From positions 1 through 33,475 of the forward strand of contig JAPPBT010000026.1 of NCBI GenBank assembly GCA_026702745.1: a stretch of 33,475 nt of DNA, read 5' to 3'. The position numbers and the translations under genes were made by a program. The notes beneath the pieces are model-generated. The model worked only from the letters and a program-made list of their open reading frames with translations. It had not been told where the DNA came from and searched no databases. Shown piece by piece: positions 8,442-24,537 of this stretch. Source of the DNA: Gemmatimonadota bacterium. GTDB lineage: Bacteria > JAAXHH01. Position 1 is the first letter of the stretch; each line of letters starts with the position of its first letter.

Positions 8442-8534
8442 CGGACACGGATCCTGATGGCGAATACAGCCGGTTTGAAATACGGTAAAGTCGGATCGGG
8501 TTGAAAATGGGTTTCAGGAGACTATTAAGGGGAT

Positions 8535-8562
8535 ATATTAGTATATGTAGGGGGCTTGTCAA
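8535..8562 (-). promoter_or_regulatory. Sigma70-type promoter for smc-coaE
   Basis: On the minus strand, a perfect -35 box TTGACA (8562-8557) is separated by 16 bases from TAATAT (8540-8535), which matches the -10 consensus at four of six positions. The surrounding stretch 8520-8580 is strikingly AT-rich for this part of the window. Transcription would start near 8528 and give a leader of nearly 90 bases before the smc ATG at 8441. Confidence 0.6.
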
Positions 8563-8646
8563 GCGAATTATACACTATGTACGGCGGGCCCGGACCGCTG
8601 GAGACCACTGTAAACACGGATCGAAAGGGATTTGGCGAGGCCAGAT

Positions 8647-9378
8647 ATGGCGATGCCGGATAGGGCGCGGTCGACGGACAGTAGGAACATCGTGGTCATC
8701 ATTCCCGTCCTGAACGAGGAGGACTCGATCGGGCTGGTCCTGGCCCATATCCCGGAACGGATGGCCGAGGCCGTGATCGTGGTGGACAACGGGTCGACGG
8801 ACGGGACGGCAGCCGTGGCCGAGGAGGGCGGTGCCGTCGTCGTGCGGGAACCCCGGCGTGGCTATGGAGCGGCCTGCCTGCGCGGCATGGCCAAAGCTGC
8901 ACGGTTCGCCCCGGACGTCATCGTGTTCCTGGACGGCGACTACAGCGACTACCCGGAAGAGATGGAGGACCTTGTACAGCCAATCACGGATGAGGGCTAC
9001 GACCTGGTGATCGGATCGCGGATGCTGGGCCACCGCACGCCGGGCTCCATGCCGGTCCAGGCCGTCATCGGGAACGTCCTCGTACCGCGGATCATCCGGT
9101 GGCTTTACGGCCATCGGTACACCGACCTCGGACCGTTCCGGGCCATACGCTACGACCGGCTGCTCGAACTGGAAATGGCGGATCAGAACTTCGGCTGGAC
9201 CGTCGAGATGCAGATCAAGGCAGCGCAGAAGGGGTATCGGACGCTTGACGTGCCGGTGCGGTATCGGAAGCGGGTTGGGGTTTCGAAGATTACGGGCACG
9301 CTGTCTGGAGCTGTCAAGGCGGGCGTGAAGATCCTGTGGGTGACGTTCAGGTATGCTGTGGGGAAGTTAGGAACTTAA
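8647..9378 (+). CDS. Family 2 glycosyltransferase (dolichyl/undecaprenyl-phosphate sugar type)
   Basis: A GT-A fold glycosyltransferase. The N-terminal strand NIVVIIPVLNEEDSIGLVL is followed by VIVVDNGSTDGT, then the DxD-like metal site VIVFLDGDYSDYPEEM, then DLVIGSRMLG and a C-terminal GWTVEMQIKAAQKGYRTLDVPVRYRKR. This pattern is common to GT2 enzymes that move sugars to or from polyprenyl phosphates for envelope glycans; the exact substrate is not readable. The ATG at 8647 has GGCGAGG 6-7 bases upstream and is preferred over an in-frame TTG at 8632, whose AAAGGGA is too close. There are no clear membrane helices, so it probably acts on the cytoplasmic membrane face. It is the last high-GC gene before the island. 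Confidence 0.85.
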   Translation: MAMPDRARSTDSRNIVVIIPVLNEEDSIGLVLAHIPERMAEAVIVVDNGSTDGTAAVAEEGGAVVVREPRRGYGAACLRGMAKAARFAPDVIVFLDGDYSDYPEEMEDLVQPITDEGYDLVIGSRMLGHRTPGSMPVQAVIGNVLVPRIIRWLYGHRYTDLGPFRAIRYDRLLELEMADQNFGWTVEMQIKAAQKGYRTLDVPVRYRKRVGVSKITGTLSGAVKAGVKILWVTFRYAVGKLGT

Positions 9379-9732
9379 GGAAATTAGTTGAAATTGCTCA
9401 CTCAGCAAATTCAGATGATGCAATAATCTGCCGATTAGACTTAGAATCGGTGGTAGCCGCTACCCAAACAAGTTTGATCGGAACCCTGTAACCCGGAACG
9501 TGAAATGAGCGTCTAAGTCTGTAGAAGACCGTAATCCGGCAAACCGTAGATCGAAGAATTACGAAAGATCCAGAGGCGGAACTTTGTATTTGATTTACAC
9601 CAAACTTAGTACCAAACTCGAAGTCCTCTGTGTCGACCTAGGGGTTAGGTTTAGGCCCTTAGTCAGTAGGTTTCCCGACTAGAGGATGTAAGCTCACCAG
9701 AAATACCCTGTAGGTCTACAGGAGTGCACCTC
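9379..9732. other. Non-coding stretch at the left edge of the island
   Basis: No convincing gene on either strand over 354 bases. Base composition drops relative to the preceding gene. Two small adjacent hairpins occur: CCGATT/AATCGG (9431-9436 and 9445-9450) and GGTAG/CTACC (9452-9456 and 9460-9464). A third, imperfect one lies just after the glycosyltransferase stop. They may mark the end of that transcript or a junction scar. I found no tRNA, integrase remnant or clear repeat of the right island edge here. Confidence 0.5.
9707..9722 (+). promoter_or_regulatory. 16-bp near-palindrome overlapping the ribosome binding site of the membrane amidohydrolase
   Basis: CCTGTAG-GT-CTACAGG (arms 9707-9713 and 9716-9722) ends inside the AGGAG (9720-9724) that serves the ATG at 9733. 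As DNA it could be an operator; as RNA a stem of six with a GGTC loop would hide part of the Shine-Dalgarno sequence. No trans-acting factor can be named. Confidence 0.4.
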
Positions 9733-11517
9733 ATGAGATTGGCCCGAATCATTATGGTCACCCTTTTGATTCTTGGCATGAATGGCCCCATTACCGCGCA
9801 ACAGGACAGAGTCGAGTCGCAGCCTGTCGTGGGCGACGTCGCCTTCGTTAACGTCAACTTGATCCGCATGAATGACGAGCGGATTGAGCCGGGGCAGACC
9901 GTGATAGTCAGGGGAAATCGCATTACCGCCATCGGCGTTTCTCCAGAGATCCAGATACCCCAAGGTGCGATCGTGATCGACGGTTCTGGTCGTTATCTAG
10001 TTCCCGGCCTGACAGATGCGCACGTACACCTTACTACCGATATGCCTTGGGCACCCGCCCGACCCGATTTCGGTGATGCGCCACTGTACCTGGCGTACGG
10101 CGTTACGTCTGTGATAAATCTAAGAGGCTCAATTACGCAACTCGAGTGGAGGCGACGCATCAAAGAGGGCGAACTCCTTGGGCCGACGATCTACTCGTCG
10201 GGGGAGTTCATCAACGAACCTCGCGTGAACACCGTGGAAGAAGTCGTGCAGGAAATTTCCGCTCAGCTTCGTGCTGGCTATGATGTCATCAAATTCCACG
10301 AAGTGTGGACGCCTGAAGCGGGTTTCCTCACGACGACTGGCTTGTCTCGTGAGGCCTATCTTAAGATGAATGACATGGCGCGCGAGGTCGGTATCCCACT
10401 CGTGGGTCACGCCCCGGTTAACCTTGATTTGGAGACTCTTCTTCTGGCCAGGCAACCCTTAGCACACCTGGGCATGTTGTCGAATATTCACTTCTTACCA
10501 CTGGCCAGCAACCTAGCGTGGCTGACTGCTACGGCAGCGGGATTAGTCTTTCTGACCATCATCGTCTTGACGAACGGTATTGCGGCAATAACTCGGAGGT
10601 TTCGGTCGACGGCGCCGCCGCCTCCACGCAGACTCACACGTATTCGCCGTTACTCTACCTTAGCGTGGCTAGCCGGCTTGCTCGCAGGTGTCAGTGCGGC
10701 CTTGTTCTTACCCGGTGGTCCTCTTTTTGAAAGCACCGCACTGCGTCTGGCGTTTACATTACTGATCTTCGTTCTGGCTGCCGCTTCGGTGATCATGTTG
10801 ATACTGACCGCAACGATGTGGCGCGACACGGGCACGCCTATCCTCTCAAACTGCCAAGCCACGCTGGCGTCCGTTTCCAGCCTTGTGGTCGTTGTCGCCG
10901 GTCTAACTTTCTGGGTACCGATCGCGTGGCGGAGTAGTGATGGCGGAATTGAACGTCTTGCAGAGCGAGTCTACGACGCGGATATCCCTGTGCAGTCAAC
11001 ACTGGTGGCGTACGAGGCCATCGGTGGTCCCGGAAGATCAAGGCTTACAGAAGATCCCATGATCGCGTATTTGAACGGTGAAACACGGGAGATATGGAGT
11101 CGGGTAGCGCAAAGGACTGGACCACCTGGATATCGTTATACGGATTTCATGAAAAAAGTAGCCAACGCGCTACATCGGGCGGGGGTGCCCCTGATGGCCG
11201 GAACAGACGCTATGGGGTTGTCGTTAGTCACACCGGGATCATCTCTCCACTATGAGTTGGAGTTGCTTGTCGATAGTGGTCTGACACCGTACGAGGCGAT
11301 ACGCTCGGCCACAGTTGTACCGGCTTGGTTCTTAGGTAAGCAAAATGAATTCGGCTCGATTACTACAGGATCCCGTGCTGATCTCCTTCTGATTGAGGAG
11401 AATCCCCTTGAGGACGTAACTCGGCTCAGGCGACCGATAGGTGTCATGGTTCGCGGGAAGTGGTTCACGCGCGAACAACTGGAAGAGATGTTGACAGATC
11501 TTACTGAGGAGCGATGA
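9733..11517 (+). CDS. Secreted/membrane amidohydrolase with a four-helix membrane insert
   Basis: A 594-residue metal-dependent hydrolase resembling the imidazolonepropionase-like amidohydrolases (COG1228). A signal peptide (MRLARIIMVTLLILGMNGPI) leads into the beta-sandwich start and LVPGLTDAHVHL (His 97, His 99). DVIKF with the likely carboxylated Lys 187, LVGHAP (His 226), LAHLGM (His 245) and VPLMAGTDAMG (Asp 492) follow, so all metal ligands seem present. Between His 245 and Asp 492 lie four hydrophobic segments (about 262-282, 310-327, 337-359, 380-398) with Arg/Pro-rich links, not part of the usual barrel. GSITTGSRADLLLIEENPLED closes the sandwich domain. The ATG at 9733 has AGGAG 8 bases upstream; an in-frame GTG at 9724 is too close to it. 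Substrate unknown. The gene lies at the island edge, convergent with the cysteine desulfurase. Confidence 0.75.
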   Translation: MRLARIIMVTLLILGMNGPITAQQDRVESQPVVGDVAFVNVNLIRMNDERIEPGQTVIVRGNRITAIGVSPEIQIPQGAIVIDGSGRYLVPGLTDAHVHLTTDMPWAPARPDFGDAPLYLAYGVTSVINLRGSITQLEWRRRIKEGELLGPTIYSSGEFINEPRVNTVEEVVQEISAQLRAGYDVIKFHEVWTPEAGFLTTTGLSREAYLKMNDMAREVGIPLVGHAPVNLDLETLLLARQPLAHLGMLSNIHFLPLASNLAWLTATAAGLVFLTIIVLTNGIAAITRRFRSTAPPPPRRLTRIRRYSTLAWLAGLLAGVSAALFLPGGPLFESTALRLAFTLLIFVLAAASVIMLILTATMWRDTGTPILSNCQATLASVSSLVVVVAGLTFWVPIAWRSSDGGIERLAERVYDADIPVQSTLVAYEAIGGPGRSRLTEDPMIAYLNGETREIWSRVAQRTGPPGYRYTDFMKKVANALHRAGVPLMAGTDAMGLSLVTPGSSLHYELELLVDSGLTPYEAIRSATVVPAWFLGKQNEFGSITTGSRADLLLIEENPLEDVTRLRRPIGVMVRGKWFTREQLEEMLTDLTEER

Positions 11518-11641
11518 GAATCAAGACGCCACGTGTTCGGTGTTGCACGGACAATAGCATCGCAACGAGTCCTGTCGATTAAACGCCTCGGCGATTGTAG
11601 TAAAACTCTTCAGAAGTTAACAAAATCAGTAGAGAATGAGA

Positions 11642-12814
11642 TCAGGAAATGTTCTTAGTGGAGAGATTAGCAAGGGCAATTACGACAAGATTCGCGGCAC
11701 TTTCAATATCGTCTTCTGATGTAAATCGTCCGAAACTGAACCGGATAGAGGCTTCGCTTTGTTCGGCAGTCAGGCCCATTGCACGAAGGACATGGGACGG
11801 CTCAGGAATGCCCGAAGAACAAGCAGCGCCCGTTGATGCAGCTAGTTTCGGCTGTAAGGAGGCAATGATATCACGGGCGTCGAATCCATCAAACCTTATG
11901 TTTGCGTTTCCAGGATGTCGTTGGTCGCTAGTAGGGCCGTTAACTTCAATGGTAAGTCCGGCCTCTAGTAAAAGTGCGATGAACATATCCCTTTGGTGAG
12001 CAATTCGATTACGTTCTTCACAACCTTCGGCTATAATTAACTCCGATGCCGCGGCCATGCCTATGCAAAGAGGTAATGGAACTGTTCCGGACCGGATACC
12101 ATCCTGCTGCCCTCCACCATAAAGCAAGGGTTCAATACGGTCATGTAATTCCCGATTAATGTACAGCGCACCAATGCCCTGTGGTCCGTACATCTTATGT
12201 CCGGATAGGCTGATGAGATCAGTAATGGTGGCTAAGTTCTCTAGATTCATAGCACAGGGTGCCTGTGCGGCATCGCAGTGAAACAGAGCACCGTAAGATT
12301 TAGCTTTATCGCAGATCGACTGAACGTCCTGTATCGTCCCCACCTCGTTGTTAACCGCCATTACAGAAACTAGCAGAACATCATTTGCGATCCGTTCTTC
12401 GAGTTCGGCGAGGTCGAGGTATCCATCACCGTCTACCGATACAGTCTCGACTGTAATTCCCTCATTCATAGACAGCTCTCTAGCGGCGCCCAAAACACAT
12501 TTGTGTTCGATCGCACTGACAAGGATTCGTCGACGCGTATTTGCATCGTGGCGTGCTAATCCCAAAAGGGCCAGGTTGTTCGCTTCCGTCGCACCTGAAG
12601 TAAAGACGATTTCGTTCTCATCGGACCCTATCATAGAAGCAATAGAGCCTGCAGCGTCTTTGACTGCCGAATCGGCGTGCCAACCGATGACATGATCGCT
12701 AGAATGCGGGTTTCCGAATGATTCGCCCCAAAATGGGACCATCCGTGCTAGGACCCGCGGGTCTACCGGGGTGGTTGCTTGGTAGTCAGTGTATATGGTG
12801 TCGGAGTTTTGCAT
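11642..12814 (-). CDS. sspA: Cysteine desulfurase (SspA/DndA role in DNA phosphorothioation)
   Basis: A 390-residue PLP enzyme of the NifS/IscS/DndA family that takes sulfur from L-cysteine and passes it on as a persulfide. Visible landmarks are YTDYQATTPVDPRVL at the N terminus, FTSGATEANNLAL (72-84), SAIEHKCV with the PLP-stacking His, the PLP lysine in SLSGHKMYG (Lys 207), and the mobile active-site cysteine in STGAACSSG (Cys 332). It is transcribed away from the DUF4007-ATPase-PP-loop genes across a 222-base AT-rich control region. DndA genes are often divergent from dndBCDE in the same way. The divergence and lack of IscU/HscA neighbours suggest service to DNA sulfuration rather than general Fe-S assembly, though it could do both. 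The SspA name rests on context. Confidence 0.85.
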   Translation of the reverse strand: MQNSDTIYTDYQATTPVDPRVLARMVPFWGESFGNPHSSDHVIGWHADSAVKDAAGSIASMIGSDENEIVFTSGATEANNLALLGLARHDANTRRRILVSAIEHKCVLGAARELSMNEGITVETVSVDGDGYLDLAELEERIANDVLLVSVMAVNNEVGTIQDVQSICDKAKSYGALFHCDAAQAPCAMNLENLATITDLISLSGHKMYGPQGIGALYINRELHDRIEPLLYGGGQQDGIRSGTVPLPLCIGMAAASELIIAEGCEERNRIAHQRDMFIALLLEAGLTIEVNGPTSDQRHPGNANIRFDGFDARDIIASLQPKLAASTGAACSSGIPEPSHVLRAMGLTAEQSEASIRFSFGRFTSEDDIESAANLVVIALANLSTKNIS

Positions 12815-13036: not shown

Positions 13037-13975
13037 ATGAATAGAGGCCCGCTCTACGAAAAGGGTTACAGGCCCCAACTGTCCGGGCACGAAACGTTCC
13101 CGCTAAGGTATGGCTGGCTGAAGAAGGCCTACGATGCCGTCAAAATGGCCGAGGACACCGAAGATGATGTTTCGGTGTTTTCTGCAGATGACGCTATCGC
13201 CCGATTTGGAGTCGGAAAGAACATGGTCGCCTCAATGCGTCACTGGGCGAATGCAGCAGGCGTCATCAAAGAAAACCCGGGTCGTCCAATCACCACAACA
13301 TTCGGACACGTATTGTTCGATGACGAAGATGGTTTAGACCCCTTTATGGAGAACCCGAATACAGCATGGCTGATTCACTGGAAACTATGCAGTCATCCGG
13401 CTAAGACATCCTGGTATTGGGCGTTTAACTACTATCCTGCACTAACCTTTCATCGCGACATATTTGTTAGAAACATTGCAGCACTTGCTTATGACCGTGG
13501 ATGGACCCGAGCTTCCCAGGCTACGATCAAGAATGACGTAGCGTGTTTCGTACGAACCTATGTCGCTCATGGACCGAAAGGCAATGCTAGCCTCGAGGAT
13601 AGTCTGGAATCACCGCTCACGGAACTCGGTTTAATCAGATCTCGTGAAGATCACCATGGTCTTAGGTTCGTTCGTGGACGTAAACCATCTCTAGGGTCCG
13701 GCGTATTCACCTTTGCAGTTACCGAATTCTGGAGAAGCCACTCACCTTCAGCGCGAACGCTTTCGTTCGAAGCACTTGCCCACGAACCGGGAAGTCCAGG
13801 TCGGGTTTTTCAATTGGATGAAAACGACATGGCGGATCGTCTGTATGCTCTCGAGGATTCAAGTAAAGGTCGGTACACCTGGTCAGAAACAGCCGGTCTG
13901 AAGCAGATCGTGCGGGATTTCGAATTCGATGGGATCGACGGATCCGATTTTATCAGGTTAGACTATGGAACTTAG
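13037..13975 (+). CDS. sspB: DUF4007 protein, SspB-like
   Basis: A 312-residue protein matching the DUF4007 pattern: LSGHETFPLRYGWLKKAYDA at residues 16-35, then ARFGVGKNMVASMRHWANAAG, then FGHVLFDDEDGLDPFMENPNTAWLIHW. As I recall, SspB of the single-strand phosphorothioation system carries DUF4007 and acts as the DNA nickase; this gene holds the same place ahead of the ATPase and PP-loop genes. No Walker motif or known nuclease motif is obvious. The ATG at 13037 has no recognisable Shine-Dalgarno sequence, but the conserved GHETFPLRYGW begins only 17 residues in, so the start cannot be far off. The next gene starts 18 bases after its stop. The domain call is strong; SspB identity is inferred from context. 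Confidence 0.82.
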   Translation: MNRGPLYEKGYRPQLSGHETFPLRYGWLKKAYDAVKMAEDTEDDVSVFSADDAIARFGVGKNMVASMRHWANAAGVIKENPGRPITTTFGHVLFDDEDGLDPFMENPNTAWLIHWKLCSHPAKTSWYWAFNYYPALTFHRDIFVRNIAALAYDRGWTRASQATIKNDVACFVRTYVAHGPKGNASLEDSLESPLTELGLIRSREDHHGLRFVRGRKPSLGSGVFTFAVTEFWRSHSPSARTLSFEALAHEPGSPGRVFQLDENDMADRLYALEDSSKGRYTWSETAGLKQIVRDFEFDGIDGSDFIRLDYGT

Positions 13976-13993: not shown

Positions 13994-16900
13994 ATGGCAC
14001 TCGCCGATCAGGTGCGTATATCAAGACGGTTTCAACGTTCGATCCGCATCGACACGGATATCGGTAATCCAGCGGCGTTGGAAGGATTCGTCTGCCCCAG
14101 GTCGTATGCCGGAATTCTAGAAACTATGGTGGAGCACATTGATGAGAACGGTCAGGGTGCGTTCACCTGGACAGGTCCCTACGGCAGTGGAAAATCCAGT
14201 CTGGTAGTTGCACTTTCTGCGGCACTTAAGAGAAAGCAGCGTAACTCGGATCATACTAAGCAGATTCTTGGTGAGCGAACATATGAGAAAATTCGAAGAA
14301 CGCTAAAACCTCGGACCAGAGGCTGGCGTGTTTTACCGGTCGTCGGTCGCCGAGATCGCCCGGCACAGGTAATCGGAGAAGCAATTTGGTCAAGTAAACT
14401 GACCACCAGTCCTAAGACAGAGAATTGGACCGATGGAACTGTCCTCGACACGATTGAAGAAATAGCCGAAAGTGACCGACGCAGTTACGGTGGCCTACTT
14501 GTTTTTATCGATGAGATGGGGAAATTCCTTGAGGGCGCCGCGAACGACAATACGGATCTTTTTCTGTTTCAGGAACTTGCAGAACGGGCTTCCAGGAGTG
14601 GTAAACGGCTCATCGTCGTTGGTATCCTGCATCAAGCATTCGAGGAGTATGCCCACCGGCTTACCCGAGAATCACGCGACGAGTGGTCCAAAATCCAAGG
14701 ACGATTCGTTGACCTTGCGGTTAACGTTGACCTCGATGAACAAATAGACCTGATCAGTCGTGCAATCGAATGCGACCACAGACCCGTCACTGCGAGGATT
14801 CTTGCAGCAAATACAGCAGCCCTGGTAAAACGAGATACGATACCTGACTTCGAGCAGACGCTCGAAAAATGTTGGCCCCTGCATCCTATAGTCGCCTGTC
14901 TGTTAGGTCCCATATCACGCCGACGTTATGGCCAGAATCAACGCAGTATATTTGCGTTTCTCAATTCCGCTGAGCCGTTCGGTTTCCATGATTTCCTGAG
15001 AAACGCTGAACATCAAGCTGTCTACGAACCCGACAGGCTTTGGGACTACCTAAGGGTTAATCTTGAGCCATCCATCCTGGCATCACCCGACGGACATCGT
15101 TGGGCCCTTGCTGCTGAGGTTATTGAGCGATGCGAAGCAGTCGGTGGCGACGACGTGCATCTACGCATCCTCAAAGTGCTGGCAGTAATCGGTATGTTCC
15201 AGGACCGGTCCGCATTGGGCGGAAGTCTTGAACTGCTGAAGCTTGTATTTCCAGATTATATTGCCGAAATCGAGAACAAACTGGAAGATCTAGATAGATG
15301 GTCGTTTGTCATCTATCGAAAGTTTGCGGATTCGTTCTCCATATACGAAGGTAGTGATTTCGACATTGATACTGCCGTAGAAAACGCTCACCAGAACATT
15401 GGGGAGATGAATGCGTCAGTATTTAGAAAACAGTTCGAATTTCAACCCATCATTGCGAAACGTCACTATCACGAAACCGGTGCCTTGCGATGGTTCGATA
15501 CCACAGTTTTGCCTTTAGCTGAAGCGGACTGCGCGACTCGTGAGTATCAGCCTAGGAATGGCGCGATTGGATGTTTTATTCTGGCAATCGCAACCCAATC
15601 AGAGTCAGAGGAGTTGGCTGAAAAAGTTTGTGAAGAGATCGTTCAACAATCAAGGGATTGGGACATCGTCGTAGGTCTTTCCCAGCACAGTGGTGGAATC
15701 CCTACACAGTTGCGCGAACTCGTGGCATTAGAATGGGTCCGGGACCAGATGCCCGAACTCCAGGGAGACCGGGTCGCACGGATGGAAGTTCAAGCGCATA
15801 TAGACGAATTGCAGAATCGTTTGTCTGATTCGTTTGATCAAGCGTTTAACGGTGCACTGTGGTATCGTAATGGCGCTGTACCTGTCGAGCTTCCATACTC
15901 CAGGCTAAACATGGTCGCATCAAGTCTAGCTGACAGTCGTTTCAACTATGCTCCTCGCATATTTAACGAACTCCTTGGTCGTACGAAATCATCCAGTAGC
16001 GCTGTTGCTGCAAGAAACATCCTTATTCGTCTCATGGTAGCCAATGAAGGCAAAACCCGACTAGGCATTGAAGGGTACCCTGCGGAAGGTGGGCTTTTTG
16101 CGTCGGTGTTGGATGCTACCGGTTTGTACCATGAGACGATTGATGGTTGGCGATTTGTGGCTCCGAGTAACGACAGCGACGATCCGGGTCGCTTGTGGCC
16201 GGCCTGGAATGCAGCATTGAGTTTATTGACGGCAAACGCACATCGGGGAGTCACCGTGGAAGAGATTTATGAAGTATGGCGACGACCACCATTCGGTATA
16301 AAGGAAGGATTGTTGCCGGTGCTTTCCGTCGCTTTCTACATTTCGAATCAGCGTAATCTGGCACTTTACCGCGATGGGTTATTTCAGGTTAAAATCTCCG
16401 AACTCGATGTGGATTTTCTTGTTAGAGATCCAGCAGATATACAGCTACGATGGATGGAACTCTCAGATACTTCGCGCGCCCTCCTTGCCGATTTAGCTCA
16501 GGTCGTTCGCGAACTGGATGAAGAAAACCCACTGACCCATCTTGAACCCCTGGATGTAGCTCGTGGCCTGGTGGCGATATATGATCAGTTACCTCAGTGG
16601 GTCGGTAGAACCCAGCAACTCTCATCAAACGCCAAACGCATAAGACAGTTGTTCAAATTAGCTAATGACCCGAACAGACTAATCTTCGACGACATACCTA
16701 GTGTCGATGACGATGGCGTTGATACAAGTGAAGGTCCCACTGGACGGCAGGCTGCGAATCTTGTGGGTGAGGGGTTGCGGGAGCTAAAGCTTGCGTATCC
16801 CACGATGCTGAATCGTCTTCGAGATTTGCTTCTTGGCGAACTTCGTGTGCCCAATACTTCGACGTCCATGCTCTCCGAATTGCGCGACCGTGCCGAAAAC

Positions 16901-17383
16901 ATACGCGAAGTCAGCGGAGATCATCGTTTGGAGGCCTTTATCATTCGACTCGCGAGATTCCATGGCAAGAATGCTGAGATAGAGGATATCGCCGGAATGG
17001 CAGTCAATAAACCGACACGGAACTGGGTCGATTCCGACGTAGATAAAGCTGCGTTACAACTTGCCGAATTGGCGGAGCAGTTCGTCCATACTGAGGCTTT
17101 TGCCCGGGTTAAAGGTCGCCGCGACAAGAGACATTCAATGGCAGTTGTCGTTGACATAAGTCGCCGTGGGATGCCTCTTCATGATGAATTCGATGTCTCC
17201 GATATGGACGAGTCCGAAGTAGGGCAACTCATCGATCGCATCGATCAAGTTCTGGATGAAAGTGGAGAGAAACGGAGAAACGTTATCCTTGCCGCACTTG
17301 CGAGTTTGATGTCGAAACGGCTTGATCCCAGTGGTGATTCAAGACAAATGATGAAACCAAAAAAAAGGAAAGAAGTGTCGTGA
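13994..17383 (+). CDS. sspC: Large P-loop ATPase, SspC-like
   Basis: A 1129-residue ATPase. Walker A GPYGSGKSS is at residues 61-69, inside FTWTGPYGSGKSSLVVALSA. A likely Walker B follows in GGLLVFIDEMGKFLE (about 164-178), with RLIVVGILHQAFEEYA as a likely sensor strand downstream. The rest is long and helical without another motif I recognise. In Ssp phosphorothioation loci a large ATPase sits between the DUF4007 protein and the DndC homologue, as here. AGGA (13981-13984) precedes the ATG by 9 bases. The stop overlaps the next gene's GTG (GTGA). BREX BrxC/PglY proteins share this general design, but no PglZ, BrxL or methyltransferase accompanies it. ATPase activity is confident; SspC identity comes mainly from the neighbourhood. 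Confidence 0.8.
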   Translation: MALADQVRISRRFQRSIRIDTDIGNPAALEGFVCPRSYAGILETMVEHIDENGQGAFTWTGPYGSGKSSLVVALSAALKRKQRNSDHTKQILGERTYEKIRRTLKPRTRGWRVLPVVGRRDRPAQVIGEAIWSSKLTTSPKTENWTDGTVLDTIEEIAESDRRSYGGLLVFIDEMGKFLEGAANDNTDLFLFQELAERASRSGKRLIVVGILHQAFEEYAHRLTRESRDEWSKIQGRFVDLAVNVDLDEQIDLISRAIECDHRPVTARILAANTAALVKRDTIPDFEQTLEKCWPLHPIVACLLGPISRRRYGQNQRSIFAFLNSAEPFGFHDFLRNAEHQAVYEPDRLWDYLRVNLEPSILASPDGHRWALAAEVIERCEAVGGDDVHLRILKVLAVIGMFQDRSALGGSLELLKLVFPDYIAEIENKLEDLDRWSFVIYRKFADSFSIYEGSDFDIDTAVENAHQNIGEMNASVFRKQFEFQPIIAKRHYHETGALRWFDTTVLPLAEADCATREYQPRNGAIGCFILAIATQSESEELAEKVCEEIVQQSRDWDIVVGLSQHSGGIPTQLRELVALEWVRDQMPELQGDRVARMEVQAHIDELQNRLSDSFDQAFNGALWYRNGAVPVELPYSRLNMVASSLADSRFNYAPRIFNELLGRTKSSSSAVAARNILIRLMVANEGKTRLGIEGYPAEGGLFASVLDATGLYHETIDGWRFVAPSNDSDDPGRLWPAWNAALSLLTANAHRGVTVEEIYEVWRRPPFGIKEGLLPVLSVAFYISNQRNLALYRDGLFQVKISELDVDFLVRDPADIQLRWMELSDTSRALLADLAQVVRELDEENPLTHLEPLDVARGLVAIYDQLPQWVGRTQQLSSNAKRIRQLFKLANDPNRLIFDDIPSVDDDGVDTSEGPTGRQAANLVGEGLRELKLAYPTMLNRLRDLLLGELRVPNTSTSMLSELRDRAENIREVSGDHRLEAFIIRLARFHGKNAEIEDIAGMAVNKPTRNWVDSDVDKAALQLAELAEQFVHTEAFARVKGRRDKRHSMAVVVDISRRGMPLHDEFDVSDMDESEVGQLIDRIDQVLDESGEKRRNVILAALASLMSKRLDPSGDSRQMMKPKKRKEVS

Positions 17384-18222
17384 AGGCAGAAAACGAGATT
17401 CGACATGTACTCGGTTTGTCTGGCGGCCGGGATAGCGCCGCACTAGCCGTATTCATGCGGCAGAATCACCCAGATCTCGATATCGAGTACTTCTTCACCG
17501 ATACCGGCAAGGAACTCCCTGAGGTGTATGAATTCCTGGTTAAGCTGGAAGGATTTCTTGGCAAGCCCATCGTACGGCTTAACCCAGATCGCGACTTCGA
17601 TTTCTGGCTTAAACAATACAACGATTTCCTGCCGTCACCTCAAACCCGCTGGTGTACCCGCCAATTAAAGTTACGTCCTTTTGAGCAATGGATAAAGCCA
17701 TCGCTAGACGCCGGCACGACAATCTGCAGTTATGTTGCCATACGATCGGATGAACAATACCGGGAGGGGTATTCATCCAAACACGAGAATTTGATCGTTA
17801 AACTACCCTTCAAAGATGCCGGTATAGATAAACCAGGTGTATTGGAGATCCTCGATGGGGTTGGGCTCGGACTTCCCGCATACTATGAGTGGAGAACACG
17901 CAGCGGGTGTACATTCTGTTTCTACCAGCAGAAGATCGAGTGGGTACGACTCATGGAACGCCATCCTGATTACTTTGAGGAAGCCAAGCAGTACGAAAAG
18001 ACTGCGATGGACCACGGTTCGCCGTTTACATGGAGTCAAGGCGAGTCGTTAGATGATCTGTCAAGACCAGAGCGTATCGCGCAGATCAAAGAAGACCACC
18101 AAAGGCGACTTGAACGAATGTGTGAAGTTCGTCAAGTGAATCCACTCCGGCCGGATGCGGAGCCAATAGACATCGATGATTTGTATGGAAAATCCAAGGT
18201 GTGTCTAGCGTGTCACAAATGA
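17380..18222 (+). CDS. sspD: PP-loop PAPS-reductase-like DNA sulfur-modification protein (SspD/DndC-like)
   Basis: A 280-residue ATP-pyrophosphatase of the PAPS-reductase/DndC group. The PP-loop SGGRDS lies at residues 14-19, followed by EYFFTDTGKELPEV, typical of DndC-like enzymes. Candidate Fe-S or sulfur-relay cysteines are Cys92 (TRWCTRQLK), Cys177/Cys180 (SGCTFCF) and Cys275/Cys278 (CLACHK). In DndC and SspD, ATP activates the DNA phosphate and sulfur from the desulfurase replaces a non-bridging oxygen. It is much shorter than DndC of Dnd systems (about 500 residues), which fits a single-strand Ssp-type enzyme. GTG start at 17380, overlapping the ATPase stop. A metabolic PAPS reductase is unlikely given the neighbours. 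Confidence 0.85.
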   Translation: MKAENEIRHVLGLSGGRDSAALAVFMRQNHPDLDIEYFFTDTGKELPEVYEFLVKLEGFLGKPIVRLNPDRDFDFWLKQYNDFLPSPQTRWCTRQLKLRPFEQWIKPSLDAGTTICSYVAIRSDEQYREGYSSKHENLIVKLPFKDAGIDKPGVLEILDGVGLGLPAYYEWRTRSGCTFCFYQQKIEWVRLMERHPDYFEEAKQYEKTAMDHGSPFTWSQGESLDDLSRPERIAQIKEDHQRRLERMCEVRQVNPLRPDAEPIDIDDLYGKSKVCLACHK

Positions 18223-19841
18223 TAAAACTATCAAATGTGGAATCCCCTGGATATAGGCCTGCGCAAGTTTTTGCAAAACTGGATGATTATGCTGCCGCGA
18301 GCCTCTTGCCACCAGGTGTTCTGGATCTAATCAAAGCTGTCGATCCTGAAAGGTTAATTGGCACGAATAGAGATGATACACTTGGTAAAGCATTCTCGGT
18401 AGAACTCGCGGTTGACGATCTCGAACGCCGTAAGGTGTTAATTGAAGTACTGCCAGAATTGAAAATAGCAGAATTGGAAGCTCGAACTGATACCGGAATT
18501 GATCGCTTACTGTCGGTGGAAACCCTAGAACCAGCGGTACGGCGTGCGATTTTGGGCTTTTTCGGAGTACCGACAACACCTGAAGCATACACAGACGAAA
18601 CTGCAGCATCTGTAACCGTACGACCCAATAGAGGACTGTTTCCGCATCAGAAACGAGCTGCAGCGTCAGTAGAAAAATACCTATACATCGAAGATGGACG
18701 TGTAATGTTACATTTACCGACCGGTGTTGGCAAAACTAGAACCGCGATGAGCGTTGTTGCATCCCACCTTAGAAACCGTTCTTCAGGTCTTGTTTTGTGG
18801 TTGGCAGTAACTCGAGAACTACTCGAACAGGCGGCGATTGAGTTTATGAGTTTGTGGAATGTCGTAGGAGATCGAGAGGTTGAATGTATACGGTTCTGGT
18901 CCAATTATGATCCACCAATTGGAGAAGTCACAGATGGTGTTGTTTTCGCGGGTTTGGCAAAGCTACATTCTTACGGGTTAAATCGTAAACAGCTTTGGGA
19001 TCTCGGTGACAGAACTACCTTTGTAGTTTTCGATGAGGCTCATCAGGCGGTGGCAAACACTTATATGGACATTGTTGAGACCGTGACGACACGCGGTTCG
19101 AAGACACCGCTGCTTGGTTTAAGTGCGACACCAGGGCGCACTTGGGGTGATCCTGAGCAAGATGCGATTGTCGCAGATCTGTTTTTTGGAAACAAAGTAA
19201 CTATTGAAGTTGAGGGTGCAAATCCCATAAAGAAACTTACAGACGATCGTTACTTGGCCAAAGTTAGTTTCTCATTATTAAATGTGGAACCTGGGCTTCG
19301 ACTATCTGATCATGACGTTGCTGATATTAAACAGGCATTGGATTTACCAGACGCGATAGCCAATCGTCTAGGTGAAGACGAGGGTCGTAACCTTCGAATA
19401 GTTCAAAGACTAATTAACTTGTCTGACAACCATTCAAGAATCTTGGTATATGCTGCTTCCGTAAGTAATGCGGTGCTTTTAACAAGTATATGTCGAGGTG
19501 TTGGTCTTAATGCAGACGTGGTTACAGGCGGAACTCATGTCGTTGAACGGGATGTAATCATACAGCGCTTCAAACGTGTAGGAGGCCCCTCTCGGATTTT
19601 AATAAACTTCGGTGTATTAACTACAGGTTTTGACGCACCATCCGCTAGTGCAGCACTTATCGCGAGACCGACGAAATCACTGGTCTTATATAGTCAGATG
19701 GTGGGTCGTATTATTCGTGGACCGAAAGCTGGTGGTACGGAAAATTGTGAGGTCGTAACTGTTGTCGATACATCATTACCTGGTTTTGGAGACGTAGCAG
19801 AAGCCTTTATGAATTGGGAGGATGTATGGAAAGCCACGTAG
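18219..19841 (+). CDS. SF2 DEAD/DEAH-box helicase of the defence module (possible SspF role)
   Basis: A 540-residue superfamily-2 helicase. Q-like motif GLFPHQKRAAASVE, Walker A LPTGVGKTRTA (about 166-176), DEAH in VVFDEAHQAV (about 270-279), motif III LSATPG (about 301-306) and the C-terminal pair LTTGFDAPSA and YSQMVGRIIRG (arginine-finger motif VI, about 491-501) are all present. The first about 130 residues match nothing I know and may bind DNA or a partner. The ATG at 18219 overlaps the previous stop (ATGA); in-frame GTG codons at 18201 and 18210 are alternatives with AAGG upstream. Its stop lies 16 bases inside the next gene. In sspBCD-sspFGH cassettes restriction genes follow sspD directly; I assign the role by position only. 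Confidence 0.88.
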   Translation: MIKLSNVESPGYRPAQVFAKLDDYAAASLLPPGVLDLIKAVDPERLIGTNRDDTLGKAFSVELAVDDLERRKVLIEVLPELKIAELEARTDTGIDRLLSVETLEPAVRRAILGFFGVPTTPEAYTDETAASVTVRPNRGLFPHQKRAAASVEKYLYIEDGRVMLHLPTGVGKTRTAMSVVASHLRNRSSGLVLWLAVTRELLEQAAIEFMSLWNVVGDREVECIRFWSNYDPPIGEVTDGVVFAGLAKLHSYGLNRKQLWDLGDRTTFVVFDEAHQAVANTYMDIVETVTTRGSKTPLLGLSATPGRTWGDPEQDAIVADLFFGNKVTIEVEGANPIKKLTDDRYLAKVSFSLLNVEPGLRLSDHDVADIKQALDLPDAIANRLGEDEGRNLRIVQRLINLSDNHSRILVYAASVSNAVLLTSICRGVGLNADVVTGGTHVVERDVIIQRFKRVGGPSRILINFGVLTTGFDAPSASAALIARPTKSLVLYSQMVGRIIRGPKAGGTENCEVVTVVDTSLPGFGDVAEAFMNWEDVWKAT

Positions 19842-21700
19842 TTGAATCTCAGTCTATTCAACAGGAGTTGGATTTTTTAATTGTCTCAGCAAACCTAACT
19901 ATCGAGGCAATGCGCGATAGTGGATATAAGAACACGGATCACGCGTTAGCTGAATTAATCGACAACTCAGTTGAGGCTAAAGCTGATTTAATTGAGATTA
20001 TAGCTGTTGAGAAGCCACCAGATCCAAATGTATCATATTCCAGAGCTCGAATCAGTGAAATTGCGGTATCCGATAATGGCGAAGGAATGGACCAAACTAC
20101 CCTTAGGCGCGCCCTGAAATTTGGTGACGGGACACGAACTGATCGTCGCAAAAGAGGGATCGGACGTTTCGGTGTAGGGCTCCCACAATCTTCCATCTCA
20201 CAGTGTCGACGAGTTGACATATGGACCTGGCAGAACGGACCAGACAATGCGATCCATTGTTACTTGGACCTGGACGATATTAAGGGAAATGGCAGGCAGG
20301 ACGTTCCAGAACCAACGTCTCAGATCGTCCCCGATCGGTGGCGTAATGTTGTTCAGAATTCCCTATCACAAACCGGTACCCTTGTAGTTTGGAGTACCCT
20401 TGATCGAGTAAGGTGGATGGGCGGGGTAAAAACCCTTACGCGAACGGCGGACCTTTGCGGACGGATTTATCGAAAGTTCCTGGCGACGAATCAGGTACAA
20501 ATCAGCTTGGTCCTTGCTTCTGGTGACCAACAGTTGGATTGCCAAAGTAGGTTCGACTGTCAGCCAAATGATCCTCTCTACTTGATGGCACCATCTTCGA
20601 CACCTAAACCGTTTCAAGATCGACCAATGTTTCAACTGTTCAACGAGAGAAAATGGACAATTCCGGTCGATGATACTCAGGGAACGGTACATGTGCGTTG
20701 TACTCTAGCTTCACCGGACGCAATAAATGAATCACTGTCCCAAGTAAAGTGGCCACAGTCATACACAAGTCCAGGTAAGTCTCCGTGGGGTAAGCATGCG
20801 GATCGAAACAAAGGAATCTCAATTGTTCGCGCTAATAGAGAACTTGAACTCAGTTTGGACTGGGTGAACAACTATGAACCAGAGGAACGTTGGTGGTCCG
20901 TAGAAGTGGAATTTGATCCTATTCTCGACGAGATATTCGGTGTTGTAAATAACAAACAACACGCACACATTTTTACGGAGGGAGCTGGTTTCGAATGGGA
21001 GGAGATGGCGGCCTCCAATGAAACATATAGTTTGTTACTAGAACGATTAGAGTTAGAATCCGATCCCCGACATCACTTATTTGAGATCTGGACTTGGATC
21101 GATGACCAAATTAGAAGGATGAGACGTGAGCGTGGGAAAATACGGAAAGGTACCGGGACTTCACGCCATCCTACGACGGAAGAAGAAATAGAGGATGTTG
21201 CTACTAAGGTAATAAATGAACAGGCAGAACAGGGGGAGACTGGCGATAGTGATCTAGCGCCAAAAACGACTGACGAAGAGAAAATACATCAGATTGCACA
21301 GTCCATTGCTAAGTTTAAAGTCGATGAGCATACCGCTACAGAAACTGCACATAAAACAGTTTCTAGCGGTCGTCGTGTACTCATAAAGGGAGTTACATTG
21401 GATCATAAGGATGCTTTCTTTACTGTGGAGTCGGTAAGTGACGTGATCGAAGTATGGCTAAATGATAGACATCCTGTACATGAACACCTGATCGATGTCT
21501 TGAGAACTGAAAACGAAGTACAGGAAGTAGGAGAATTGGCTAAACGTTTAAATATAGCTGAATTCACCCTTCGCATGTTGTTGTGTGCTTGGGCAAGATA
21601 CGAAGATAAAGCCCCTGCGGGTATGAAGGAAACAATCAGCGATGTTCGCATGGATTGGGGCAGAGAAGCTCGTAAATTTCTAGATGTTATAGAACAGTAG
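19826..21700 (+). CDS. GHKL/Hsp90-fold ATPase of the defence module (possible SspG role)
   Basis: A 624-residue protein with an N-terminal Bergerat-fold ATPase: N box HALAELIDNSVEA (39-51), G1 box VSDNGEGMD (81-89), and G2 region KRGIGRFGVGLPQ (109-121). This resembles the Hsp90, MutL, MORC and topoisomerase VI-B family, proteins that clamp around DNA or partners when ATP binds. The middle (about 130-410) has no motif I can name. From about 410 it is charged, with RRMRRERGKIRKG and an acidic linker (about 450-490). GGGAGG (19816-19821) stands 4 bases before the ATG at 19826, which makes an upstream in-frame TTG at 19814 unlikely. It abuts the PLD gene (TAG directly followed by ATG). The ATPase fold is sure; the role is inferred from its place. 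Confidence 0.85.
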   Translation: MESHVVESQSIQQELDFLIVSANLTIEAMRDSGYKNTDHALAELIDNSVEAKADLIEIIAVEKPPDPNVSYSRARISEIAVSDNGEGMDQTTLRRALKFGDGTRTDRRKRGIGRFGVGLPQSSISQCRRVDIWTWQNGPDNAIHCYLDLDDIKGNGRQDVPEPTSQIVPDRWRNVVQNSLSQTGTLVVWSTLDRVRWMGGVKTLTRTADLCGRIYRKFLATNQVQISLVLASGDQQLDCQSRFDCQPNDPLYLMAPSSTPKPFQDRPMFQLFNERKWTIPVDDTQGTVHVRCTLASPDAINESLSQVKWPQSYTSPGKSPWGKHADRNKGISIVRANRELELSLDWVNNYEPEERWWSVEVEFDPILDEIFGVVNNKQHAHIFTEGAGFEWEEMAASNETYSLLLERLELESDPRHHLFEIWTWIDDQIRRMRRERGKIRKGTGTSRHPTTEEEIEDVATKVINEQAEQGETGDSDLAPKTTDEEKIHQIAQSIAKFKVDEHTATETAHKTVSSGRRVLIKGVTLDHKDAFFTVESVSDVIEVWLNDRHPVHEHLIDVLRTENEVQEVGELAKRLNIAEFTLRMLLCAWARYEDKAPAGMKETISDVRMDWGREARKFLDVIEQ

Positions 21701-22615
21701 ATGAAACTAGGCGACGAAGTATCCTCAATACTAAATGGAGCTAAATACAACGTATTGATAGCCGCTCCGTTTATCCGCTCTGAAGCACTGATACGGTTGA
21801 TAGACGTTATTCCGACTGATATAGAAACAACCGTGGTTACTAGGTGGCGGCCATCGGATCTGCTCAGTGGCGTTTCAGATTTAGCTGTTTACGATCTCAC
21901 TGTGTCGCATGGGATTCCATTGTTCGTTCGGCAGGATCTTCATGCGAAGTATTTTGCAGTCGACGACGAATGTTTGGTTGGCTCTGCGAATGTTACCCTA
22001 ACTGCTCTTGGCTGGAAAACCCCTGCAAATCTAGAATTACTAACAACGGTTTCGCGTAATTCAGACCGTATGAAAGAATTTGAAAGTTCATTGATGTCTG
22101 GAGCGGTAAAAGTAACGGCAGCACACCACGCGAGGCTAGAGCACTTACTCAAGAAGCTAAAAGAATCGTCAGTGGATTTTACCAATGCCCAGATGATCTC
22201 AGCATTGAAACCACTACCACCCAACTGGGTTCCAAAGTCAAGAAATCCTGAGGAACTTTATAGTGTCTATTGCGGAAATCTGGATGTCATCCGATCCGCG
22301 TTGAATACAATGAAAGATGAACTTTTAGTTATTGGAGCTCTCCCAGGTTTAGATGAAGACGGGTTTCGTGCAATTGTAGCAGCTACTATTGCTCAGTCCC
22401 CACTAATTGACCGGGTTATTCGTCAAATCGATAGTGAAGGTCAAGTTTCGGAAACAGAACTGCATGCGATTTTGACGGCAGTCGGAATTGAGGAAGGTAA
22501 ATACAATCCTCGTGACGTACTCCAAGTACTTGAGAGATGGTTTTCGTACTTTCTTTCAGATCACTACGAAACAGCTAGCGATTCCATCAAGCTAATAAAA
22601 GCCCAAAAGATATAG
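21701..22615 (+). CDS. Phospholipase-D-like nuclease, single HKD motif (possible SspH role)
   Basis: A 304-residue protein with one phospholipase-D active-site motif: DLHAKYFAVDDECLVGSANVTLTAL, with His81, Lys83 and GSAN at 94-97. Single-HKD proteins act as dimers and include nucleases such as Nuc, BfiI and many defence nucleases. The N-terminal strand YNVLIAAPFIRSEALIRLI is the usual opening of the PLD fold. The C-terminal half (about 125-304) is helical and unassigned. It starts immediately after the stop of the GHKL ATPase with no Shine-Dalgarno of its own, so its translation depends on the upstream gene. The likely role is cutting or nicking invading DNA, with helicase and GHKL ATPase as motor and clamp. 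Confidence 0.85.
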   Translation: MKLGDEVSSILNGAKYNVLIAAPFIRSEALIRLIDVIPTDIETTVVTRWRPSDLLSGVSDLAVYDLTVSHGIPLFVRQDLHAKYFAVDDECLVGSANVTLTALGWKTPANLELLTTVSRNSDRMKEFESSLMSGAVKVTAAHHARLEHLLKKLKESSVDFTNAQMISALKPLPPNWVPKSRNPEELYSVYCGNLDVIRSALNTMKDELLVIGALPGLDEDGFRAIVAATIAQSPLIDRVIRQIDSEGQVSETELHAILTAVGIEEGKYNPRDVLQVLERWFSYFLSDHYETASDSIKLIKAQKI

Positions 22616-22795
22616 ATACTGAGAAGGCTTAGACAATGAGCCGACCTTTGTGCAATGAACTGCCAGAATGTATGATCTTGCACGGCTCAATTCACTCATT
22701 TCTAAACTTCTATTTCTAATACCACAGCGGGATCATAAGCAGTTTCAGTTAAATCCCCATTTACTTAGAGCGTTATTCTGGATTGAGTAAACTGA
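22616..22795. other. 180-base gap separating the two blocks of the defence island
   Basis: No gene is visible. An imperfect inverted repeat, GAGCCG...TGCAA (from 22639) against TTGCACGGCTC (to about 22688), could fold into a stem with a 7-base bulge, but no clear T tract follows it. The gap interrupts an otherwise unbroken series of overlapping or abutting genes, and the genes after it have lower G+C. It may hold a terminator and a separate promoter for the GIY-YIG/DGQHR pair. Confidence 0.4.
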
Positions 22796-23275
22796 ATGAG
22801 AGACACAGACCTTATTGAGGAACAGAATCAACTTAAAGCTCATCATCGTTGTTTCTATCTTTGGCCCCGCCAGTGGAAGGCATGTGAATTGCAAGAACCC
22901 TTTTCTTGGGTCACGCATCCATTTAAGAACGACCAAATAGAAAACATACCTAGCAGTCCTGGTATCTATAGTTTCGTAATTCGACCGGGACTCGTTTCAC
23001 ATCCTGCATGTTCATATCTGATGTACATAGGTAAAACTGAACGAACTCTTCGCGAGAGGTTTAGCGAGTACTTTGTCGAACAGAACAATGATTCTAGACG
23101 TCCGAAAATCGTTCGACTACTTAGAATGTATCGGGGGTATTTGTATTTCTGTTGTTCCGTTATAAGGGAAGCGGAACAAATCAACAAAATAGAGGAGGAA
23201 CTAATTAATGCGTATTTACCACCTTGCAATGATCAATTTCCTGCTAGAATACGTCGCGTGATTGGGGCATTCTGA
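22796..23275 (+). CDS. Small GIY-YIG nuclease
   Basis: A 159-residue protein whose second half is a GIY-YIG endonuclease domain: GIYSF at 56-60, MYIGKTERTLRERFSEYF with YIG at 77-79 and catalytic-type Arg86, then KIEEELINAYLPPCND with the metal-binding Glu (133-135) and terminal Asn145. The first 50 residues contain a WPRQWK...W stretch of unknown role. GIY-YIG proteins cut DNA with one metal ion. No strong ribosome binding site is seen. The stop TGA shares its A with the ATG of the DGQHR gene, so the two are made together. That pairing, after a phosphorothioation locus, suggests a defence nuclease rather than a homing or repair enzyme. Confidence 0.85.
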   Translation: MRDTDLIEEQNQLKAHHRCFYLWPRQWKACELQEPFSWVTHPFKNDQIENIPSSPGIYSFVIRPGLVSHPACSYLMYIGKTERTLRERFSEYFVEQNNDSRRPKIVRLLRMYRGYLYFCCSVIREAEQINKIEEELINAYLPPCNDQFPARIRRVIGAF

Positions 23276-24537
23276 TGAAAAAGAATAGAGAGCTTATTAT
23301 ACCAGCCCTTAAAGCTCATATGGGAGACTGGGTATACTACGTGACTATTTTGAGATTTGAACAAGTAGTTGGTATGATAGACATTGCAGAAGAAATACAT
23401 ACAAGCAATGTATTAAAAGACATGATACAACGTCAGATTACAAATAGAGCGAAACAAATTTCTGATTACATATTGAACCAACCTCAACGTTTTTTTAACT
23501 CAATAGTCGTAGGTGTATATGGTGGATCCCCAGACTGGTATGAACTAGCTATAGGTACGAACCCTCAGTATGTTGGTGATGAGATACCCGAAGAGTACGA
23601 TGGGATTGTTGGGTTTCTAAGGTTTGATGGTACTCAGAAACTATATGCAATCGATGGACAGCACCGAGTTATGGGCATACGTCAGACTCTAAATAAGAAC
23701 GTACAGTTCAAAGAAGAGGAAGTAAGTGCTATATTTGTTGCACATCGTAATGATGCTGAAGGCATGGAGAGAACCCGACGGTTATTTACAACACTAAATC
23801 GCTATGCCAAACCTGTTAGTAAAAGTGATATAGTTGCTCTAGATGAAGATGATATAGTTGCTATAGCGACTAGAGAACTGGTCGAGAACCATCCCTTGTT
23901 TCATGAGAAAGTTTCGCTAGTAAAAACAAAAGCAATAGGAGTACGGGACAACAGAAGTTTCACAACCATAATTACGCTTTATGATGTGTTGGACATCTTG
24001 TTCCGACTTGAAGGTCGAAAGTGGAATGAATTCAAACGTCTTCGACCTTCGGATGACGTCATATCCGAGTTTTACGGTAACTGTGTGGAATTCTGGGACC
24101 GTATGGCAGAGCATTTTAACCCGTTGAGAAGTGTACTAGAGAGTCAAACGGGTGACAATACTGCCAAACTCTATCGACATAGAGAAGGGGGACACCTACT
24201 ATTCCGGCCTATTGGTTTGATTATTGTTGCACATGTGGTTAGAAAAGCAAAGGAAACTGGTCTGTCGGAAGACGAAGCGATTAAACGGATTTCCGGGGTC
24301 TCAATGGAAATATCAAATTCACCATGGGTTGGTTTACTCTGGGACAAAACAAACCAACGTATGATCGGCGGACCTACTCAGCAGAAAGTAGCAAGACAAC
24401 TACTTTTTTATATCATTGGTGGTGATTTAAAAAGCATGAAAACTAGCTATGAGAATGTACTTCAAGAATATGCAGGGCTATTAAATAGAGACGTATCAGA
24501 GCTTGTTTCTGTCTTCAACCAAGGTACTGAGTGGTGA
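23275..24537 (+). CDS. DGQHR-domain protein of the DndB family
   Basis: A 420-residue protein with the signature YAIDGQHRVMGI (DGQHR at 127-131) and the second conserved block RRLFTTLNRYAKPVSKSD (about 168-185) found in DndB and DGQHR-domain proteins (ParB/sulfiredoxin-like fold). DndB represses dnd operons, and DGQxR-type domains in restriction proteins such as SspE sense modified DNA and hydrolyse nucleotides. Here it overlaps the GIY-YIG gene by one base, so it could be the sensing subunit of a two-protein nuclease, the regulator of the island, or both. It is among the most AT-rich genes in the window. No DNA-binding helix-turn-helix is evident. Family is confident, role inferred. Confidence 0.85.
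   Translation: MKKNRELIIPALKAHMGDWVYYVTILRFEQVVGMIDIAEEIHTSNVLKDMIQRQITNRAKQISDYILNQPQRFFNSIVVGVYGGSPDWYELAIGTNPQYVGDEIPEEYDGIVGFLRFDGTQKLYAIDGQHRVMGIRQTLNKNVQFKEEEVSAIFVAHRNDAEGMERTRRLFTTLNRYAKPVSKSDIVALDEDDIVAIATRELVENHPLFHEKVSLVKTKAIGVRDNRSFTTIITLYDVLDILFRLEGRKWNEFKRLRPSDDVISEFYGNCVEFWDRMAEHFNPLRSVLESQTGDNTAKLYRHREGGHLLFRPIGLIIVAHVVRKAKETGLSEDEAIKRISGVSMEISNSPWVGLLWDKTNQRMIGGPTQQKVARQLLFYIIGGDLKSMKTSYENVLQEYAGLLNRDVSELVSVFNQGTEW

Follow-up and report, generated by a model that had tools for sequence, protein, structure and literature searches.

A GIY-YIG nuclease gene coupled to a DGQHR gene beside DNA phosphorothioation systems: a candidate two-subunit restriction module

Gene order in the window

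The window analysed here is a 33,475-nucleotide stretch of contig JAPPBT010000026.1 from a Gemmatimonadota bacterium (assembly GCA_026702745.1). It carries a phosphorothioation (PT) locus of the Ssp type, a separate helicase-GHKL-PLD module and, downstream of both, a pair of genes encoding a GIY-YIG protein and a DGQHR protein:

11642-12814, minus strand: sspA, cysteine desulfurase and sulfur donor, divergent from sspBCD (PADLOC SspA, E = 2.9e-129)
13037-13975, plus strand: sspB, DUF4007 (PADLOC SspB, E = 9.3e-105; PF13182, E = 3.6e-85)
13994-17383, plus strand: sspC, ATPase (PADLOC SspC, 1258 bits, E = 0)
17380-18222, plus strand: sspD, PAPS-reductase-like sulfurtransferase (PADLOC SspD, E = 1.6e-136)
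18201-19841, plus strand: SF2 helicase of the helicase-GHKL-PLD module, outside the pair (PF04851, E = 9e-19)
19814-21700, plus strand: MzaB-like GHKL ATPase of the same module (PF13589, E = 1e-21; MzaB, E = 9e-17)
21701-22615, plus strand: PLD-family nuclease of the same module (PF13091, E = 1e-5)
22616-22795, plus strand: 180-bp spacer between the PLD gene and the pair, with no promoter-like or terminator-like match
22796-23275, plus strand: predicted GIY-YIG nuclease subunit, 159 aa (catalytic Y58, Y77, R88, E133 and N145)
23275-24537, plus strand: predicted DGQHR subunit, 420 aa, DndB superfamily, ParB/Srx-like (QR at 52-53, DGQHR at 127-131, F171 and N175, all invariant or nearly so)

The two open reading frames of the pair share a single base at TGATG (...TTCTGATGAAA...), as the first-pass annotation of this DNA had described. 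It had also placed the pair after the modification genes, which is correct for the window, but not in the sense of direct succession, since the helicase-GHKL-PLD module intervenes. The promoter and terminator sites that we found in the window were at chance level and lay outside the 180-bp spacer, and a search against Rfam gave no matches. Between positions 11642 and 25443 the GC content steps down from 50% in sspABCD to 44-46% in the helicase-GHKL-PLD module and 40-42% in the pair, rising to 67% in the rhodanese gene past the pair; this stepwise profile suggests, on base composition, separate acquisition of the modules.

The block formed by the helicase, the MzaB-like GHKL ATPase and the PLD nuclease (18201-22615 in the window) recurs beside sspBCD in L004, L006, L038, L045, L053, L084 and L091, and a helicase-GHKL block with no PLD gene is present in L060. 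The block corresponds neither to SspE nor to SspFGH and may represent another uncharacterised Ssp restriction arm.

Family assignment of the two proteins

Taken alone, the window GIY-YIG protein falls under every curated cut-off. The profile of its 76-member family matches the GIY-YIG domain of UvrC in the PDB (1ycz, E = 4e-4), and the motifs G56-I-Y58, Y77-I-G79, R88, E133 and N145 are in register with GIY-YIG. The top Foldseek match of the AlphaFold2 model (pLDDT 90.9) is the GIY-YIG domain of I-TevI (1ln0, probability 0.89); as the E-value is 0.18, which is weak alone, we treat this match as supportive, to be read alongside the profile and the motif. In the family alignment catalytic Y58, Y77 and R88 are found in 76/76 proteins and E133 in 75/76, with the fifth catalytic position occupied by N (52/76) or S (20/76), and this at a mean column identity of 24% across the 76 proteins. 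Judged by its catalytic residues and predicted fold, the window protein is a member of the GIY-YIG nuclease superfamily. The first-pass annotation had considered that it might group with repair or homing enzymes, and the scores lead away from both. With the UvrC repair nuclease model it reaches 19.7 bits against an equivalog cut-off of 285, and at only 159 aa it does not have the full-length architecture; with the homing endonuclease model grpIintron_endo it reaches 17.9 bits against a cut-off of 56, and its gene is free-standing within a conserved two-gene unit. The Pfam GIY-YIG model is matched by just nine of the 76 family members, and the plasmid records that we examined label the gene hypothetical; existing surveys would therefore overlook this family.

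The DGQHR protein scores above the cut-offs of both TIGR03187 (110.8 bits against 58.85) and the DndB family PF14072 (103.8 bits against 29.1). Its DGQHR motif, at residues 127-131, is conserved in all 77 family members, Q52, F171 and N175 are invariant and R53 is kept in 75/77. These residues make up the QR, DGQxR and FxxxN motifs, which the family has in common with GmrS/DUF262 (PMC4619093). If the motif equivalence proposed in that study, which our profile alignment did not recover, is taken as a guide, the Y-Q-R patch for PT sensing keeps its QR and has I or L in place of Y in 75/77 proteins. The structural model (pLDDT 90.1) matches viral DUF262, GmrSD_N, ParB-like and DNA-sulfur-modification proteins at E-values of 1e-5 to 1e-4; a fold search of the PDB with the same model gave nothing significant. 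This DUF262/GmrSD_N/ParB superfamily is the one to which the PT-sensing domains of SspE and DndI belong (PMC9646914, PMC11662687). On the strength of these model-based matches, the DGQHR protein is a ParB/Srx-fold predicted NTPase with a DGQxR motif.

We asked whether it is simply DndB, and four lines of evidence argue that it is not. The DndB equivalog TIGR03233 gives 58 bits against a cut-off of 328; true DndB sequences lie across a branch with 100% support, which the long-branched pair member L079 adjoins; a separate true dndB gene accompanies the pair in L003, L018, L042, L049, L066 and L083, and Salmonella L102 likewise has both a true DndB and a pair-type DGQHR protein; and the pair-type proteins carry [IL]QR and RRLF where DndB has [AS]QR and QQMF. 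Score, tree and coexistence thus keep the protein apart from the pure repressors with which, in the first-pass annotation, it might have grouped. Cyanobacterial DGQHR matches (E of about 1e-28) were set aside as a different protein of ~540 aa, which covers only approximately positions 146-413.

By analogy with the logic of SspE and DndI, we read the pair as a two-subunit PT-dependent restriction module, a reading to which we assign a probability of roughly 60%. It is weakened by the comparison with SspE itself: when profiles were compared, the DGQ[HQ]R motif was the single stretch of the DGQHR family that could be aligned to SspE (E = 0.008, probability 5%), which places the kinship at the level of the superfamily.

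Pairing across genomes and linkage to phosphorothioation genes

Searching one genome per species with the DGQHR alignment, and making no use of the GIY gene, yielded 80 loci, to which we added four obtained earlier (three plasmids and the window). In 81 of these 84 DGQHR-subfamily loci a GIY gene lies directly upstream on the same strand. The adjacency that the first-pass annotation had proposed to look for is thus general, and at this frequency it goes beyond chance. The two genes mostly overlap, by 4 nt in 30 loci and by 1 nt in 14 (up to three entries in these counts are duplicates from the window clade). Outside the window the pair was first met, in plasmid searches, on Rhizobium and Roseobacter plasmids with a like overlap, and it spans many bacterial phyla and one archaeon (L014, an archaeal MAG).

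Three loci, L060, L081 and L008, have a DGQHR gene with no intact GIY gene, and they count against a two-subunit module. In L060 the last ~175 bp of a GIY gene are recognisable by blastn to L063, which looks like GIY loss. The cyanobacterial locus L081 (8024-9953) shares sspBC and DGQHR-sspA with its close relative L063 (5509-9262) at 83-89% nucleotide identity, and has other nuclease-type genes, HSDR_N-like and HNH_4, where L063 has sspD-sspE-GIY. In L008 (7796-11236) a DncV-like nucleotidyltransferase gene and a CBASS-like HNH-SAVED effector gene are followed by a pair-type DGQHR gene, possibly a different use of the same sensor. We do not claim either L081 or L008 as a clean nuclease swap at the GIY position, as the segment replaced by HNH_4 in L081 takes sspD with it and the HNH-SAVED gene of L008 belongs to a CBASS-like context. 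It also counts against a two-subunit module that no fused GIY-DGQHR protein was found among 99 GIY and 111 DGQHR ORFs.

In 28 Ssp loci, pairwise distances correlate at r = 0.90 for GIY and DGQHR, 0.93 for SspC and SspB and 0.46 for GIY and SspD; the GIY-DGQHR correlation is 0.82 after removal of SspC. A high correlation within the pair combined with a low one between GIY and SspD indicates that the two genes form one evolutionary unit, to some extent uncoupled from the modification genes. The active sites of both proteins are moreover conserved across widely diverged members, which supports the two-subunit module.

The GIY gene follows sspD directly on the same strand in 24 loci other than the window, and one could imagine from this placement that the pair is an accessory to modification: the DGQHR protein would, like DndB, regulate the PT enzymes, and nicking by the GIY-YIG protein would aid sulfur insertion or the trimming or recycling of modified strands. 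Membership of the DGQHR protein in the DndB superfamily and its persistence in the GIY-less loci L060 and L081 fit this picture, whereas the separate true DndB in the seven loci named above, the fact that most PT systems function with no such pair, and the frequent location of the pair on the other strand or by restriction genes (sspFGH in L002, a dndI-type gene in L102) speak against it. We consider an accessory role unlikely.

Whatever its role, the pair keeps close company with PT genes. Profile annotation of the flanks places ssp, dnd or BREX-4 genes beside it in 72/84 loci, and where at least 9 kb of sequence is available on both sides, PT genes lie within ~10 kb in 38 of 42 loci. The four exceptions are L031, with dndC ~14 kb away, L051, whose contig carries dndC at a distance of ~27 kb, L069, where the GIY gene is truncated and dndC lies far off, and L054, where no PT genes were found. 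A scan from the GIY side, blind to both DGQHR and PT genes, covered sets of 385, 369, 395 and 339 genomes (~1,490) with the GIY profile and returned nine new matches below 1e-10, all nine with an adjacent DGQHR gene and with PT genes. Assuming that a PT locus takes up a few tens of kb of a genome several megabases long, general clustering would have a negligible chance of producing 9/9. The pair therefore sits near PT genes almost always, if not in every locus, and is not widespread in genomes devoid of DNA-sulfuration genes, as would have been expected had the first-pass annotation been mistaken about its PT connection.

All three known PT chemistries are represented: Ssp, Dnd and BREX type 4. 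The last appears in Bacteroidales in the order BrxP/DndC-like, BrxC, PglZ, BrxL, GIY and DGQHR, and has been described as PT-based (PMC12839542). On the DGQHR tree the Ssp, Dnd, BREX-4 and mixed labels form clusters, yet at least 12 changes are required. Two virus-labelled loci, L104 (P2-like with Phage_GPA, 7456-12749) and L105 (7390-10199), combine the pair with a PAPS-reductase-like gene and no full PT operon, and having just this gene nearby they count against a two-subunit PT-dependent module. The exchange of PT-type labels on the tree, the occurrence of the pair on plasmids, an ICE and P2-like prophages and its GC content below that of its neighbours could also be accounted for by a self-contained mobile defence or selfish unit whose proximity to PT genes reflects no more than shared residence in defence islands. 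The PT link, however, is far tighter than island clustering would give (38/42, 9/9) and persists when the PT type changes, making such a unit a very improbable explanation.

Other effectors often share the neighbourhood. The pair coexists with SspFGH in eight loci, adjoining sspFGH in L002, with the helicase-GHKL-PLD module in eight and with Pbe in 19; an SspE-type gene stands beside it in L063 and L010. In the integrative element of Salmonella Infantis SARB27 (L102, 11300-20222) the GIY gene and a frameshifted pair-type DGQHR gene are followed by a DndI-type gene, the group being convergent to dndBCDE. Since SspE- or DndI-type effectors sometimes adjoin the pair, it would add to them rather than replace them, and the notion of a second restriction arm in the first-pass annotation sits well with pairs beside SspFGH, Pbe, helicase-GHKL-PLD, SspE and DndI. 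The loci with SspE or the DndI-type gene also mean that the pair could be accessory, and we count this against our main reading. At the other extreme, L014 is a minimal locus, sspBCD-GIY-DGQHR-sspA, in whose vicinity no further restriction module was recognised, and in L077 the pair is the only recognised effector (on a search for effectors other than DndFGH).

A protein of ~818 aa that matches HATPase_c_3 weakly and nothing in PADLOC is encoded beside the pair in 12 loci (L007, 7041-9497; relatives in L010, L016, L017, L039, L046, L065, L071, L073, L078, L095 and L096), eight being the count by flank annotation, and is possibly a third component or another effector.

GIY-YIG nucleases have been noted in dnd neighbourhoods before: the main text of PMC10853773 treats URI (GIY-YIG) nucleases at Dnd locus boundaries as standalone suicide backups. 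Carried over to the pair, this would have the GIY-YIG protein destroy host and phage DNA once the main PT restriction is inhibited, with the DGQHR protein as its leash or trigger. The frequent presence of other restriction modules alongside the pair is in line with such a backup; against it stand the minimal loci L014 and L077, with nothing else recognised to back up, and an obligate partner with the superfamily fold of PT readers. We hold a suicide function to be less likely still than a role in modification.

Proposed mechanism and relation to known PT effectors

In the two-subunit restriction module that we favour, the DGQHR protein would be the reader, a ParB/Srx-fold NTPase akin to DndB yet distinct from it, which would bind NTP and DNA and respond to PT marks made by whichever modification machinery is encoded next to it (Ssp, Dnd or BREX-4). 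Cutting would fall to the GIY-YIG protein: in a physical complex its partner would keep it inactive or away from marked self DNA, and it would nick or cut invading DNA that bears no marks, a task that SspE and DndI perform within a single chain; NTP hydrolysis would be part of the cycle and protection from phage its outcome. We propose PT sensing by the DGQHR protein and its control of the cutter by analogy with these two effectors. SspE contacts PT through Y30-Q31 by its NTP pocket, hydrolyses GTP and opens as a nickase (PMC9646914); ATP hydrolysis by DndI is stimulated by PT and followed by release from self DNA (PMC11662687); and a DndB-like protein is able to bind ATP and GTP (PMC12704722). 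Such a module could act as a plug-in, compatible with different modification systems and supplementing other restriction arms. That the pair is a previously unrecognised PT restriction arm, a modular reader and cutter plugging into Ssp, Dnd and BREX type 4, has in our estimate an even chance of being right.

SspE offers the closest parallel, as a PT-linked effector by sspBCD that couples a ParB/Srx-fold NTPase with DGQxR to a nuclease. However, SspE carries its sensor, DUF262 (GmrSD_N), and its cutter, HNH (DUF1524), on a single polypeptide, while the pair consists of two genes, for a DGQHR protein of the DndB family and a predicted GIY-YIG cutter, and neither window protein matches the DUF262 (GmrSD_N) or DUF1524 HNH Pfam models. 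With sensor family and nuclease fold both different, and with SspE coexisting with the pair in L063 and L010, the split SspE of the first-pass annotation does not hold in the strict sense and survives as an analogy. DndI, a PT-sensing NTPase-nickase acting with Dnd marks (IscS-DndBCDE-DndI), is likewise a single-chain DUF262-HNH protein, encoded by a gene separate from the pair in L102. DndB shares PF14072 and the DGQHR, QR and FxxxN motifs with the pair-type protein, whose gene, in contrast, is not the first of dndBCDE and is almost always beside a nuclease gene. SspFGH also couples to sspBCD as a restriction arm able to co-occur with another arm, but is made of three unrelated proteins and adjoins the pair in the eight loci mentioned, hence a different module. 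TIGR04172 (DNA phosphorothioation-associated DGQHR protein 1) is another DGQHR protein restricted to PT genomes; the window protein scores 23.7 bits against its cut-off of 450.

The GIY-DGQHR pair is undescribed in the main texts of the papers searched. The main text of PMC10853773 mentions neither DGQHR pairing nor an Ssp or BREX-4 presence of URI nucleases, and PMC12839542 does not mention URI (GIY-YIG) nucleases. What is new here is the two-gene form, PT-dependent restriction effectors being the nearest known kind. The pair is probably an undescribed defence unit that uses sulfur marks to tell own DNA from invaders.

A survey of sspBCD loci found both sspE and sspFGH missing from 2,211 of 2,678 (given as 83.9%) and raised the question of unknown restriction partners (PMC8092258); at such numbers a further partner is to be expected, and the pair provides a concrete, testable candidate for it. 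If our reading is true, the pair would explain some of the sspBCD loci, more than 80% of those surveyed, that lack both sspE and sspFGH. The modification enzymes of Ssp, Dnd and BREX-4 differ, and the pair occurs with all three systems; should it read PT in each of them, PT sensing would be separable from the modification chemistry and its sequence context, and the pair would represent SspE in two parts, with sensor and cutter open to separate study.
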